Source: Alcanivoracaceae bacterium (GTDB lineage Bacteria > Pseudomonadota > Gammaproteobacteria > Pseudomonadales > Alcanivoracaceae). From it: a stretch of DNA of 64,000 nucleotides. The DNA lies in NCBI GenBank assembly GCA_029210325.1, contig JARGPU010000002.1, positions 224,559-288,558 on the forward strand, read 5' to 3'. The stretch's first letter is position 1; each line of letters starts with the position of its first letter. The position numbers and the translations under genes were made by a program. A model generated the notes under the pieces. The model was not told the origin of the DNA. It did not search any database and saw only the letters and a program-made list of their open reading frames with translations. Shown in pieces: positions 13,992-19,893 of the stretch.

Positions 13992-15503
13992 ATGACGGTC
14001 ATTCGCCAAGACGATGTGATCCAGAGCGTCGCCGACGCCCTGCAGTACATTTCCTACTATCACCCGCAGGATTTCGTTGAGGCGGTGCATGAGGCATATC
14101 AGCGCGAAGAGAGTCCGGCGGCAAAGGATGCCATGGCGCAGATTCTGGTGAACTCGCGCATGTCGGCCATGGGCCATCGACCAATCTGTCAGGACACCGG
14201 CATTGTCACCGTGTTTTGCAAGGTCGGCATGAATGTCAGCTTCGAAGGCGATCTGTCGCTAACCGACATGATCAACGAGGGCGTGCGGCGCGCCTACAAC
14301 CATCCGGATAACGTACTGCGTGCCTCGGTACTGTCCGACCCGGACGGCAAGCGTGCCAACACCAAAGACAACACCCCGGCAGTAATTCATTACGACATCG
14401 TGCCGGGCGACACGGTGGATTTTCAGGTGGCAGCCAAGGGCGGCGGCTCGGAAGCGAAGTCCAAGTTCGCCATGCTCAACCCGTCCGACTCGGTGGTGGA
14501 CTGGGTGCTGGAGCAGGTGCCGAAGATGGGCGCCGGCTGGTGCCCCCCCGGCATGTTGGGTATCGGCATTGGCGGCACTGCGGAAAAGGCCATGCTGCTG
14601 GCGAAAGAATCGTTGATGGAGTCCATCGACATCCATGAGCTGAAGGCCCGTGGTGCGCAAACCCGCTCTGAAGAGCTGCGTCTTGAGTTGTTCGAAAAAG
14701 TGAACGCGCTGGGTATCGGCGCTCAGGGCCTTGGCGGCCTGACTACGGTGCTGGATGTGAAGGTCTATGACACCCCGACCCATGCGGCTAATAAGCCGGT
14801 GGCGATCATTCCCAACTGCGCTGCGACTCGTCATGCGCACTTTGTGCTGGATGGCTCTGGCCCGGCACACCTTGAGGCGCCGAAGCTGGAAAGCTGGCCG
14901 GAAATTGCCTGGGGCAATGACGGCAAGTCGAAGCGCGTCAATCTGGATAGCATTACCCCGGAAGAAATCCAGACATGGAAATCCGGCGATACCCTGTTGC
15001 TGAACGGTAAGCTGCTGACCGGCCGTGACGCCGCCCACAAGCGTATGGTCGACATGATCAATCGTGGTGAGCAGCTGCCGGTGGACTTCACCAACCGCTT
15101 TATTTACTACGTTGGCCCGGTGGATCCGGTCGGTGATGAAGTGGTCGGCCCGGCCGGCCCGACCACGGCAACGCGCATGGATAAGTTCACCCGTACCATG
15201 CTGGAAAAAACCGGTCTGATCGGCATGGTCGGCAAAGCTGAGCGTGGTGACACGGCGATTGATGCAATTCGTGACAGTAAGGCAGTCTATCTAATGGCTG
15301 TTGGTGGCGCTGCTTATCTGGTGTCCAAGGCAATTCGCAAATCCCGTGTAGTTGCTTTTGAAGATCTGGGCATGGAGGCGATCTACGAGTTTGAAGTAGA
15401 AGATATGCCAGTCACCGTGGCGGTGGACTCCAGCGGCGTATCGGTTCATAAAACAGGACCGAAGATCTGGCAGGCGAAGATCGCCTTGAAGGAAGAAGCC
15501 TGA
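13992..15503 (+). CDS. class I [4Fe-4S] fumarate hydratase
   Basis: 503 aa; RPICQDTGIVTVFCKVG, GVRRAYNHPDNVLRASVLSDP, GPTTATRMDKF, C-terminal VAVDSSGVSVHKTGPKIW. Confidence 0.95.
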   Translation: MTVIRQDDVIQSVADALQYISYYHPQDFVEAVHEAYQREESPAAKDAMAQILVNSRMSAMGHRPICQDTGIVTVFCKVGMNVSFEGDLSLTDMINEGVRRAYNHPDNVLRASVLSDPDGKRANTKDNTPAVIHYDIVPGDTVDFQVAAKGGGSEAKSKFAMLNPSDSVVDWVLEQVPKMGAGWCPPGMLGIGIGGTAEKAMLLAKESLMESIDIHELKARGAQTRSEELRLELFEKVNALGIGAQGLGGLTTVLDVKVYDTPTHAANKPVAIIPNCAATRHAHFVLDGSGPAHLEAPKLESWPEIAWGNDGKSKRVNLDSITPEEIQTWKSGDTLLLNGKLLTGRDAAHKRMVDMINRGEQLPVDFTNRFIYYVGPVDPVGDEVVGPAGPTTATRMDKFTRTMLEKTGLIGMVGKAERGDTAIDAIRDSKAVYLMAVGGAAYLVSKAIRKSRVVAFEDLGMEAIYEFEVEDMPVTVAVDSSGVSVHKTGPKIWQAKIALKEEA

Positions 15504-15525
15504 AATATCTGATGAGTAGACAGGG

Positions 15526-16140
15526 ATGAGCAGCTTGCATGATGACACCAGCGAGCTGGCTCAGCTACGCAGTGGTGATGAGGCAGCCTTCGCCAGACTA
15601 GTGCGTGCCCATCACCGTGCTTTACTGGCGCTGGCGCGGCCCATAGTCGGAGAGTCCGAGGCGGCCGAAGTAGTGCAGATCGCCTGGATCAAGGCTCACG
15701 CCGCACTAAAGGATTTCGAAGGCCGCGCTGCGCTGCGCACTTGGTTGTCACGCATTGTTATCAACGAGGCGCGCATGATGCTACGCCAGCGCAAGCGCGA
15801 AGTGTTTCTGGAAGACATGCAGCCACAGGGTGCAGGCCCATTTGTAGACCGCTTCCGCAGTGATGGCCATTGGTCAGCACCGCCGGTGAACTGGCACGCA
15901 GACAGCCCCGACAGCCTGCTGACCCGGGAGGAGCTGGCCGATTGTTTGGCGACCCTACTGGATAGTCTGCCGTCGAATCAGCGAGCTCTGCTGGAGCTGC
16001 GCGACAGTGACGGTGTGCCGTTTGACGAGGTCTGTAACATGTTGGGCGTGTCCGCATCCAATGCCCGGGTATTGTTGCATCGCGCCAGAAGCAGATTGTT
16101 TGCTTTGGTGGATCACTTTGAGGAGACAGGCGAATGCTGA
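15526..16140 (+). CDS. ECF-type RNA polymerase sigma factor
   Basis: Region 2 AAEVVQIAWIKAHAALKDFEGRAALRTWLSRIVINEA and region 4 LDSLPSNQRALLELRDSDGVPFDEVCNMLGVSASNARVLLHRARSRL. Confidence 0.92.
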   Translation: MSSLHDDTSELAQLRSGDEAAFARLVRAHHRALLALARPIVGESEAAEVVQIAWIKAHAALKDFEGRAALRTWLSRIVINEARMMLRQRKREVFLEDMQPQGAGPFVDRFRSDGHWSAPPVNWHADSPDSLLTREELADCLATLLDSLPSNQRALLELRDSDGVPFDEVCNMLGVSASNARVLLHRARSRLFALVDHFEETGEC

Positions 16141-16361
16141 GGTGTCGTGATGTTCCTGCAGAAGCAGAAGTGCTGCTGGACGGCGAGCTCGGCTTTGGCC
16201 GACGGGTGGCGCTACGTTTCCACCTGTTTATGTGCGGTAATTGCAGGCGCTACCTGAGTCAGCTACGCCTGTTACTAGGTGCTGTTCCGCAGATGCACGG
16301 TCAAGCCTCGGACGAGGAGGTGGACCAGGTGCTTGAGCGTTTACACGATCATTCGCACTGA
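16134..16361 (+). CDS. putative zinc-finger anti-sigma factor
   Basis: 75 aa; RVALRFHLFMCGNCRRYLSQL (HxxxCxxC); overlaps the sigma gene. Confidence 0.8.
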   Translation: MLRCRDVPAEAEVLLDGELGFGRRVALRFHLFMCGNCRRYLSQLRLLLGAVPQMHGQASDEEVDQVLERLHDHSH

Positions 16362-16405
16362 AGCCTGTAACAAGAAGGGCGCTCACGCATCAGAGTCTCA
16401 ACCCG

Positions 16406-17086
16406 ATGCAGGAGCTAGCTATGTCACCATTCATCCAGTCGTTCGTCCGCCTTCACTCTCTGTTTGATAAAACCCGCAGGCTTGATTTCCTTGCGCCCTT
16501 GCTGCTGCGCCTGTTTCTGGCTCCGGTGATGATTGCCGCTGGCTGGCAAAAGGCGGGTAGTTTCGAGTCTACCGTAGCATGGTTCGGCAATGACGACTGG
16601 GGGTTAGGACTACCGTTTCCTGCGCTATTGGCGGCACTTGCCATCGCTACCGAGTTGTTCGGGGGCATCTTGCTACTGGTCGGGCTGGCAACACGCTACG
16701 TGGCAGTGCCATTGATGATCACCATGCTGGTGGCGGCGCTTAGTGTGCATTGGCATAACGGCTGGTTTGCAGTGGCGCCGTCCAACCCGGAAACCAGCAT
16801 GGCCAGACCATTAGCAGCATTGGGTATTCCGGCGGCGCAGCGCAGTCTTGAGAACAGTGTCGAAGTGGGTCAGCGCCTGCAGGCCGCCAAGGGCTTGTTG
16901 CGAGAGCACGGTAATTACGGCTGGCTGACAGAAAAAGGAAGTGTCGTAGTTCTGAATAACGGTATTGAGTTTGCAGCGACCTATTTCATTATGCTGCTCG
17001 CACTTTTTTTCTATGGCGCCGGCCGCTGGTTGAGCATGGACTATTGGATTGAGCGGCGTTTTCACTCCGCTACAGAGAGGCAATAA
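16406..17086 (+). CDS. DoxX family membrane protein
   Basis: LLLRLFLAPVMIAAGWQKAGSF, LATELFGGILLLVGLATR; HvfX-like length. Confidence 0.85.
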   Translation: MQELAMSPFIQSFVRLHSLFDKTRRLDFLAPLLLRLFLAPVMIAAGWQKAGSFESTVAWFGNDDWGLGLPFPALLAALAIATELFGGILLLVGLATRYVAVPLMITMLVAALSVHWHNGWFAVAPSNPETSMARPLAALGIPAAQRSLENSVEVGQRLQAAKGLLREHGNYGWLTEKGSVVVLNNGIEFAATYFIMLLALFFYGAGRWLSMDYWIERRFHSATERQ

Positions 17087-17089
17087 CTT

Positions 17090-17929
17090 ATGAAGCTGAA
17101 GTCCTTGTTTATTTCGCTTTGGATAACGTTGCTGGTGCTCGGGCTTGGCCATGCGGGCTGGATGCTATGGCAGCAACCAGCCCATGGGGCGGGTTGGGCT
17201 GTGGTTGTTGCGTTGCTGCCTGCGCTGACGTTTTTCCTGTGGTTGCTGGTGGCGACCGTGGCACGCACCGGCGCTACTCTCTGGCCGTTGACTGCCGGGC
17301 CGCTAATTGGCTTGGTAGCGTGGCTGGTGTCGGATCGTGCCAGCCTGATGCCGCTAGTACATATTCTCGGCACAGGTTTGGCCGGCGGTCTGCTTTACCA
17401 GTTCTGGTATTCGCGCTTTAACCGTGAGCAAAGTGCGGTGCTCACGGTGGGCCAGCGGCTGCCGACACTACAGTTTGCTGGTGCCGATGGCAAAGCGGTG
17501 CGAACTGATGAGTTGGCGGGGCCCCTGTTACTGATTTTCTATCGTGGCAACTGGTGCCCGTTGTGTATGGCCCAGATTCGTGAGGTGGCAGGGCAATACC
17601 GTGAACTTCACGCCCGCGGTGTTACCACCTTATTAGTCAGTCCTCAGCCCCATGAAAATACCAGCAGCCTTGCGCAACGCTTTGAGGTGCCATTTTTGTT
17701 TCTGGTAGATGAGGGTAACCGGGTTGCACGGCAGCTTGGCATCGTCGCCGAGAACGGGTTGCCAGCGGGATTGGAAGTACTGGGGTACGACAGTGATACG
17801 GTAATGCCGACAGTGGTAATGACGAATGCGGCCGGCGAGATTATCTTCTCGGACCAGACAGACAATTATCGAATCCGTCCAGAGCCGGATGTGTTCATTC
17901 GTATTCTTGACCAAGCGGGAGTGGGTTAA
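17090..17929 (+). CDS. membrane-anchored redoxin/AhpC-TSA-like protein
   Basis: N-terminal TM segments, then LLIFYRGNWCPLCMAQIREVAGQY (CPLC active site). Confidence 0.85.
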   Translation: MKLKSLFISLWITLLVLGLGHAGWMLWQQPAHGAGWAVVVALLPALTFFLWLLVATVARTGATLWPLTAGPLIGLVAWLVSDRASLMPLVHILGTGLAGGLLYQFWYSRFNREQSAVLTVGQRLPTLQFAGADGKAVRTDELAGPLLLIFYRGNWCPLCMAQIREVAGQYRELHARGVTTLLVSPQPHENTSSLAQRFEVPFLFLVDEGNRVARQLGIVAENGLPAGLEVLGYDSDTVMPTVVMTNAAGEIIFSDQTDNYRIRPEPDVFIRILDQAGVG

Positions 17930-18972
17930 TGCGGGAAGATGTGCGCGAGTACTATGGTCAGACGTTGCAGAGTAGCAGTGATTTACAGACCAATGCTTGT
18001 TGCGACCAGATTCCGCCAGGCTGGCTTAAGCCTGTGCTGGCCCAGCTGCATGACGAGGTGGTTAATCGTTATTATGGCTGTGGCTTGGTGGCGCCACAGT
18101 TGCTCGAGGGCATGCGCGTACTTGATCTGGGCTGTGGCAGCGGCCGTGACGTCTATGTGCTTTCGGCGCTGGTCGGTGAGCATGGAGAGGTAGTCGGTGT
18201 AGACATGACTCCGGAGCAGCTTGAGGTCGCAGAGCGCCATAAGGAGTTTCACCGTCAGGCATTCGGGCATGGCCAAAGTAACGTCCGCTTTCTTCATGGC
18301 TACATTGAGCAGCTTGATTCGTTGGGGCTGCCGGATAACTACTTCGATATTGTCGTTTCCAACTGTGTTATCAACCTCAGTCCGGACAAGGAGCGTGTCC
18401 TGCGCGAAGTGCATCGTGTGTTAAAGCCGGGCGGTGAGATGTACTTCTCCGATGTCTATGCCGACCGTCGTATTGCAGAGCATCTGAGGCAGGATCCTGT
18501 GCTTTACGGCGAGTGCCTTTCCGGTGCGCTTTACTGGAATGATTTTATTGCGCTATCGAAAAAAGCGGGCTTTGCCGATCCTCGGCTGGTGGAGGATCGC
18601 CCAATTACCATTGCCAATGATGAAATTGCGGCCAAGCTGGCGCCGACCAGATTCTGGTCCGCCACTTACCGGCTGTTCAAGCTTGAAGGCCTGGAGCCTG
18701 CCTGTGAAGATTATGGTCAGGCAGTCCTCTATCGCGGCACAGTGCCCGGTTCTGAGCAACTATTTATGCTAGATGGACATCATCTGATTGAACGGGGCAA
18801 GGTGTTCCCTGTCTGTGGTAATACCTGGCATATGCTCAGTGGTACTCGGTTCCGTGAGCATTTTGATTTTATCGGTAACTTTGACAGTCATTACGGTATT
18901 TTTCAGGGCTGCGGAACCAATGTGCCGTTTTCGGATGATGCCGGTGCTGGTGTCGCCCCTTCTTGCTGTTGA
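17929..18972 (+). CDS. arsM: ArsM-like As(III) S-adenosylmethionine methyltransferase
   Basis: SAM motif VLDLGCGSGRD; Cys in YYGCG (C51), SNCVINL (C146), GECLSGAL (C196); C-terminal VCGNTWHML...FIGNFDSHYGIF domain; CC terminus. Confidence 0.75.
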   Translation: MREDVREYYGQTLQSSSDLQTNACCDQIPPGWLKPVLAQLHDEVVNRYYGCGLVAPQLLEGMRVLDLGCGSGRDVYVLSALVGEHGEVVGVDMTPEQLEVAERHKEFHRQAFGHGQSNVRFLHGYIEQLDSLGLPDNYFDIVVSNCVINLSPDKERVLREVHRVLKPGGEMYFSDVYADRRIAEHLRQDPVLYGECLSGALYWNDFIALSKKAGFADPRLVEDRPITIANDEIAAKLAPTRFWSATYRLFKLEGLEPACEDYGQAVLYRGTVPGSEQLFMLDGHHLIERGKVFPVCGNTWHMLSGTRFREHFDFIGNFDSHYGIFQGCGTNVPFSDDAGAGVAPSCC

Positions 18973-18975
18973 GGC

Positions 18976-19893
18976 ATGGTTATGCAATTAATTCGTACTG
19001 AAAGCTGGTATCGCACGCCGAACGACGACCCGCGTGGCTATATTGAAAGCGATTCCTTGCGAGAGCTCTGGTTTCACACTGGTACTGCCTGCAATCTGGC
19101 CTGCCCATTCTGTCTTGAAGGCTCAAAGCCGGGAGATGACCGCCTCGGCTTGATGACGCTGGATGATGTGGTGCCATTTGTTGATGAGGCCTGTGAGCTT
19201 GGTGTTGGGCAGTTTTCTTTTACTGGTGGTGAGCCGTTTGTGGCCAAGCAATTTCCTCGCATTCTTGAGTATGCAGCGGCGCGCAAACCCTGTTTGGTGC
19301 TGACCAATGGTACCCGGCCATTATTACAGCGTATGGATGAAGTGCTGCCGCTGGCCAATGCCGCCAATCCGGTGTCGTTTCGCATCAGTATTGATTACCC
19401 CGACGAAACCAGGCATGAGGCGGGTCGTGGGGATGGTACGTTTGCGGAGTCCTTGCAGGCTTTGCGCGAATTAAGCAAAGCGGGTTTTGCCGTATCAGTG
19501 GCGCGGCAGTGGGAGCCTGATGAGAATACTGCGGAGGTCGAGCAGGCATATCAGAAGATTTTTTCTGATAATGGAATTTCGCGGTCGATCCGGCTGGTGT
19601 CCTTTCCCGATTTTGCCACACCAGGTGCTGAGCGCGTGACTCCGCATATAACAGAGAGCTGTATGACGACTTATCACACGGCGGAAAGTCGCGCCGGTTT
19701 TATGTGTGCTTTTAGTCGTATGGTGGTCAAGGATAAGGGAAAGATGCGGGTGTATGCCTGTACCCTGGTGGATGACGATACGAGTTATGATCTTGGAGGT
19801 ACGTTGCGGGATAGTCTGAATCAGCGAATTATGATGAAGCATCATCGCTGTTTTACTTGCTTCAAGTTTGGTGCTTCCTGCAGCGAGCTGTGA
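18976..19893 (+). CDS. radical SAM protein
   Basis: CNLACPFC (CX3CX2C), FTGGEPFV; C-terminal RCFTCFKFGASCSEL Cys cluster. Confidence 0.9.
   Translation: MVMQLIRTESWYRTPNDDPRGYIESDSLRELWFHTGTACNLACPFCLEGSKPGDDRLGLMTLDDVVPFVDEACELGVGQFSFTGGEPFVAKQFPRILEYAAARKPCLVLTNGTRPLLQRMDEVLPLANAANPVSFRISIDYPDETRHEAGRGDGTFAESLQALRELSKAGFAVSVARQWEPDENTAEVEQAYQKIFSDNGISRSIRLVSFPDFATPGAERVTPHITESCMTTYHTAESRAGFMCAFSRMVVKDKGKMRVYACTLVDDDTSYDLGGTLRDSLNQRIMMKHHRCFTCFKFGASCSEL

Follow-up and report, generated by a model that had tools for sequence, protein, structure and literature searches.

A radical SAM family beside arsM that may stand in for ArsS in an arsenosugar-type pathway

What does a radical SAM protein do next to an arsenite methyltransferase, in an operon that opens with an ECF sigma factor? 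The question is raised by a six-gene run in the genome of an Alcanivoracaceae bacterium. It lies in a stretch of 64,000 nucleotides from contig JARGPU010000002.1, referred to here as the window. Two radical SAM enzymes have been described as making carbon-arsenic bonds: ArsS, the arsenic-adenosylating enzyme of oxo-arsenosugar synthesis, and ArsL, which transfers a 3-amino-3-carboxypropyl group in arsinothricin synthesis (PMC12159101, PMC8552651). In the open-access literature on arsenosugars, ArsM and radical SAM enzymes we found no paper on the radical SAM protein of the present operon (rSAM), which may be described elsewhere.

The operon, its methyltransferase and its sigma factor

The open reading frames of all six genes are present, as follows.

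15526-19893, + strand: operon of six genes
15526..16140, + strand: ECF sigma factor gene (Pfam Sigma70_r2, E=4e-14; Sigma70_r4_2, E=2e-12)
16134..16361, + strand: ZAS-type zinc-binding anti-sigma factor gene (zf-HC2; NF052368 antisigmaE, 55 bits, cut-off 50)
16406..17086, + strand: DoxX-family membrane protein gene, HvfX-like (PF07681, E=5e-23; NCBIfam HvfX NF050144, 232.5 bits, cut-off 80)
17090..17929, + strand: membrane-anchored AhpC/TSA redoxin gene with a WCPLC motif (AhpC-TSA, E=4e-19)
17929..18972, + strand: arsM, As(III) S-adenosylmethionine methyltransferase gene (PDB 5evj, E=5.7e-108; four invariant cysteines)
18976..19893, + strand: radical SAM (rSAM) gene, family unnamed, six-cysteine C-terminal region (PF04055, E=2e-21)

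The genes are tightly packed on one strand with the spacing of an operon, as the first-pass annotation had described. The sigma gene overlaps the anti-sigma gene (15526-16140 and 16134-16361) and the redoxin gene overlaps arsM by 1 base, while the remaining gaps are 44 bp from anti-sigma to DoxX, 3 bp from DoxX to redoxin and 3 bp from arsM to rSAM. The family calls made for the six products agree with the Pfam, NCBIfam and PDB matches. The redoxin has two N-terminal hydrophobic segments. A same-strand gene of 503 aa, by appearance a class I fumarase, ends 22 bp before the sigma gene (window 15503-15526), and a fumarase-like gene is likewise found upstream of the sigma gene in locus L001. Because this distance is so short, the sigma promoter may sit within the upstream gene. 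A search for a common ECF-type promoter upstream of the sigma genes returned nothing that fitted the pattern tried.

The methyltransferase falls inside the ArsM family, as had been proposed: its match to the arsenite methyltransferase 5evj spans residues 2-333, near full length, and PDB entries 4kw7 and 4fr0 are matched at E of about 2e-91. The three cysteine contexts expected of ArsM are present as C51, C146 and C196, and C24 adds a fourth. All four align with known ArsM cysteine contexts and are invariant in the ArsMs of the family (54/54). By its sequence the protein is a complete ArsM in which none of the four arsenic-binding cysteines is missing, and it is predicted to methylate As(III). 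It scores 137 bits against the arsinothricin ArsM model NF040538, which has a cut-off of 500. The family ArsMs also end in a Cys-Cys pair (window 18960-18969), kept in 53 of 54 members.

The anti-sigma factor follows the ZAS pattern Cys-Xn-His-X3-Cys-X2-Cys, and its zinc ligands C4, H30, C34 and C37 are invariant in 13 of 13 sequences. The ZAS zinc site in related anti-sigma factors reacts to thiol-reactive stress. In the present operon, arsenite or oxidants may attack the zinc-thiolate site, which would free the ECF sigma factor and switch the operon on. Orthologues of the sigma factor (61-93%) adjoin rSAM in Alcanivorax, Spongiibacteraceae-type and Cellvibrionales genomes, and the ECF/anti-sigma pair recurs beside rSAM in other Gammaproteobacteria and in Emcibacter-type and Verrucomicrobia-type loci.

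The radical SAM family and its genomic neighbours

The rSAM protein has 305 residues and carries its CxxxCxxC motif at C39, C43 and C46. Six further cysteines (C229, C244, C262, C292, C295 and C302) are invariant in 38 of 38 aligned members. Both the N-terminal motif and the C-terminal cysteine cluster seen in the window's protein thus hold in all 38. The AlphaFold model is confident, with a pLDDT of 90, and among solved structures its fold comes closest to SkfB, a peptide maturase, and BlsE. No NCBIfam model scores above its cut-off. The best score is that of Rv1681 (NF049973), at 93 bits against a cut-off of 380 and over residues 30-208 only, and StsB is also among the best. When one genome per species was scanned, the family comprised 75 loci at 51-94% identity. 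By record titles, the carriers include Alcanivorax, Nitrosomonas, Emcibacter and other Alpha- and Gammaproteobacteria, and extend beyond Proteobacteria to Verrucomicrobia/Pontiellaceae, Lentisphaerae, Gemmatimonadetes and Latescibacterota.

Neighbours were counted at the 51 rSAM loci flanked on each side by 5 kb or more; 27 of these are Nitrosomonas-type, which makes the counts non-independent, although each partner still recurs in several lineages. ArsM adjoins rSAM in 43/51 loci, and a pairing kept in so many other genomes is not chance. A MerA-like flavoprotein lies near rSAM in 37/51 loci and a TVP38 (VTT) membrane protein in 35/51. TIGR04283 is linked to rSAM in 34/51 and TIGR04282 in 33/51, both families being called 'arsenosugar biosynthesis glycosyltransferase' by NCBIfam, a name that rests on annotation. 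The ECF sigma factor is near rSAM in 15/51 loci, DoxX in 6/51 and redoxin in 4/51, and most loci keep the ArsM-rSAM pair without DoxX or redoxin.

Occasional neighbours are an MTA phosphorylase (MTAP), an arsenate reductase-like protein and a phosphate transporter. MTAP follows rSAM in Emcibacter-type loci and in genome G129. The Emcibacter-type loci have a run on one strand of ArsM, an ArsC-like protein (64 bits, cut-off 174), a Pit-type phosphate transporter, TVP38, the MerA-like protein, ECF/anti-sigma, TIGR04282, rSAM, MTAP and TIGR04283. In some Nitrosomonas loci (L019, L025 10986-14500), genes read from their sequence as pstS-, pstC-, pstA- and pstB-like come after the cassette, hinting at a possible phosphate/arsenate link. 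A distant rSAM relative at 35% identity (L131, on contig C11 of genome G193) has no ArsM nearby, and its genome has TIGR04283, without ArsS.

Relationship to ArsS

ArsS loci of the same class show varying subsets of TVP38, a MerA-like protein, another ArsM, TIGR04283 and TIGR04282 around ArsS, with ArsMs at 31-33% identity to the present one. The new rSAM takes the position of ArsS in this common cassette. Among 292 Gammaproteobacteria, ArsS is above cut-off in 144, spread over many families, and the new rSAM is present in five, one of them G193 with its distant form; none of the five has ArsS. TIGR04283 occurs in 145 of 146 ArsS genomes (a set that includes two with incomplete genes), in 4 of 5 new-rSAM genomes and in 12 of the 141 with neither. 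Its association with the new rSAM among ArsS-less genomes has a Fisher p of 4.7e-4, with G193 included and lineage effects remaining in the counts. In the 39 carrier genomes reached via rSAM loci, ArsS was above cut-off in none and TIGR04283 was found at E<=1e-30 in 37. Because the carriers are clustered (Nitrosomonas, Alcanivorax, Emcibacter), lineage may be part of the reason why they lack ArsS. Genome G129 has rSAM and TIGR04282, with TIGR04283 not found at E<=1e-30. Four other genomes (G011, G052, G056 and G110; loci L146, L147, L148 and L149) are positive for TIGR04283 and have neither ArsS nor the new rSAM. No radical SAM gene was recognised there up to about 7 kb away from TIGR04283, a distance reduced on one side of L149 to about 5 kb. 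It is possible that such genomes use a third enzyme or have lost the pathway.

The window's genome has no ArsS, and rSAM itself scores 46.6-48.6 bits against the ArsS model (TIGR04167), which has a cut-off of 300. TIGR04283 (258 bits, cut-off 182) and TIGR04282 (154 bits, cut-off 134) are encoded together on the operon's own contig, about 200 kb away, and a TVP38-MerA fusion on another contig is 60% identical, over its full length, to the fusion that is linked in a related Alcanivorax. In this genus, neither the transferases nor TVP38-MerA show linkage to the operon. The parts of the cassette are thus present and scattered; ArsM and rSAM alone stay together, and in this operon they have ECF, anti-sigma, DoxX and redoxin as companions.

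In an hhalign comparison, rSAM scored 96.7 against ArsS and 124.7 against a MoaA control. The C-terminal likeness to ArsS is a weak match of about 20 residues (HCYGC..GQGSSC vs RCFTC..FGASC). Membership of ArsS was rejected, given the score below cut-off and the higher score of the MoaA control, and the C-terminal cysteine pattern was dropped as proof of ArsS descent. For these reasons we claim functional replacement and not membership: rSAM is ArsS in position, not in sequence. Of the two known radical SAM partners of ArsM named by the first-pass annotation, ArsS is excluded by profile, and ArsL, compared by architecture, differs.

Proposed pathway, alternatives and known systems

The unnamed rSAM probably replaces ArsS non-orthologously in an arsenosugar-type pathway, of which the operon would be the arsenic-carbon core. 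ArsM would methylate As(III). A second SAM would then be reductively cleaved by rSAM, placing a 5'-deoxyadenosyl group on the methylated arsenic to give arsinoyl-adenosine, from which an MTA-type nucleoside phosphorylase may strip the adenine. The TIGR04283 and TIGR04282 transferases, encoded elsewhere in the window's genome, could elaborate the arseno-ribose, and the TVP38-MerA flavoprotein, with redoxin and DoxX here, might supply or protect reduced As(III)/thiol chemistry. The transferases and the phosphorylase speak for an adenosylated arsenical, later depurinated and elaborated; substrate, adenosyl transfer, products and inducer are all putative. We see an even chance that heterotrophs and ammonia oxidisers share a widespread arsenosugar or related organoarsenic pathway whose key arsenic-carbon bond is made by a second radical SAM family, recruited independently, with an ECF-ZAS thiol/arsenite switch in some lineages. 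Instead of a known oxo-arsenosugar, such a pathway could yield a new organoarsenical. A new arsenic pathway had been suggested at first reading, and its organoarsenic part gains from the complete ArsM, the position of rSAM in the place of ArsS and the lack of any genome with both among those tested; the chemistry is as proposed above.

Other roles for rSAM can be weighed against the same loci. An ArsL-type enzyme with arsinothricin-like chemistry (MTA plus an ACP-arsenical) would account for an ArsM gene adjoining a radical SAM gene, the pair at the heart of the arsinothricin cluster (PMC8552651), and MTAP beside rSAM in several loci fits ArsL chemistry, which releases MTA. We think this unlikely, in view of the linkage and co-occurrence with TIGR04282 and TIGR04283, transferases outside the arsQML cluster as described. 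That cluster also includes the arsQ transporter, whereas the operon has no arsQ and no arsQ-type transporter was noticed among common neighbours; the CX3CX2C motif of ArsL is at residues 194-201 (PMC8552651), whereas the ArsS-like motif here is at 39-46 of 305. Another reading has ArsM alone forming carbon-arsenic bonds, with rSAM catalysing a different arsenosugar step or a SPASM-style protein or peptide modification. The SkfB and BlsE folds and the Rv1681 and StsB scores are in its favour, as are the six extra cysteines, which suggest an auxiliary cluster. No small precursor gene was noticed among the recurrent neighbours (ORFs of at least 60 aa), and with ArsS absent the cassette would have no adenosyl-transfer enzyme, so we consider this role improbable.

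The first-pass annotation had also drawn a link to bufferin-type copper loci, in which case the operon would deal chiefly with copper/oxidant stress, and ArsM and rSAM would be passengers. Bufferin clusters do include ECF and DoxX genes (PMC12452194), and the link holds for DoxX alone, by its HvfX score. However, the operon has no RiPP precursor, MNIO or DUF2063 gene, has a ZAS anti-sigma factor in place of NrsF, and belongs to a family in which most loci dispense with DoxX and redoxin. The absence of a DUF692 gene from the operon, noted at the outset, is confirmed; the genome's one DUF692 (MNIO) locus lies elsewhere, at C13:1432438. We rejected bufferin or copper handling as the main function on the missing genes, and regard it as very improbable. 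At the MNIO locus (L181 5970-8015, C13 at about 1432 kb) an EGKCG-repeat precursor and a DUF2063-like gene can be read from the sequence, and no DoxX gene was noticed near it; the HvfX-like DoxX is in the arsM-rSAM operon instead.

The replacement of ArsS by rSAM, our preferred reading, suggests a second, unrecognised bacterial route to organoarsenic compounds. If true, Nitrosomonas, Alcanivorax and Emcibacter relatives make carbon-arsenic bonds with a third radical SAM family in place of ArsS, which would widen the known sources of organoarsenicals and account for ArsS-less genomes that retain arsenosugar transferases. It would also allow two radical SAM scaffolds to be compared for one reaction. 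The present system is like the ArsS cassette in the size of its radical SAM protein (about 310 residues), in the N-terminal CxxxCxxC (at 32-39 of 321 in ArsS) and conserved C-terminal cysteines of that protein, and in its ArsM, TIGR04282, TIGR04283, TVP38 and MerA-like partners, linked in relatives and, ArsM apart, unlinked in the window's genome. It differs in that the rSAM core is closer to MoaA, the ArsM belongs to another subgroup, and the operon is under ECF/ZAS control with DoxX and redoxin.
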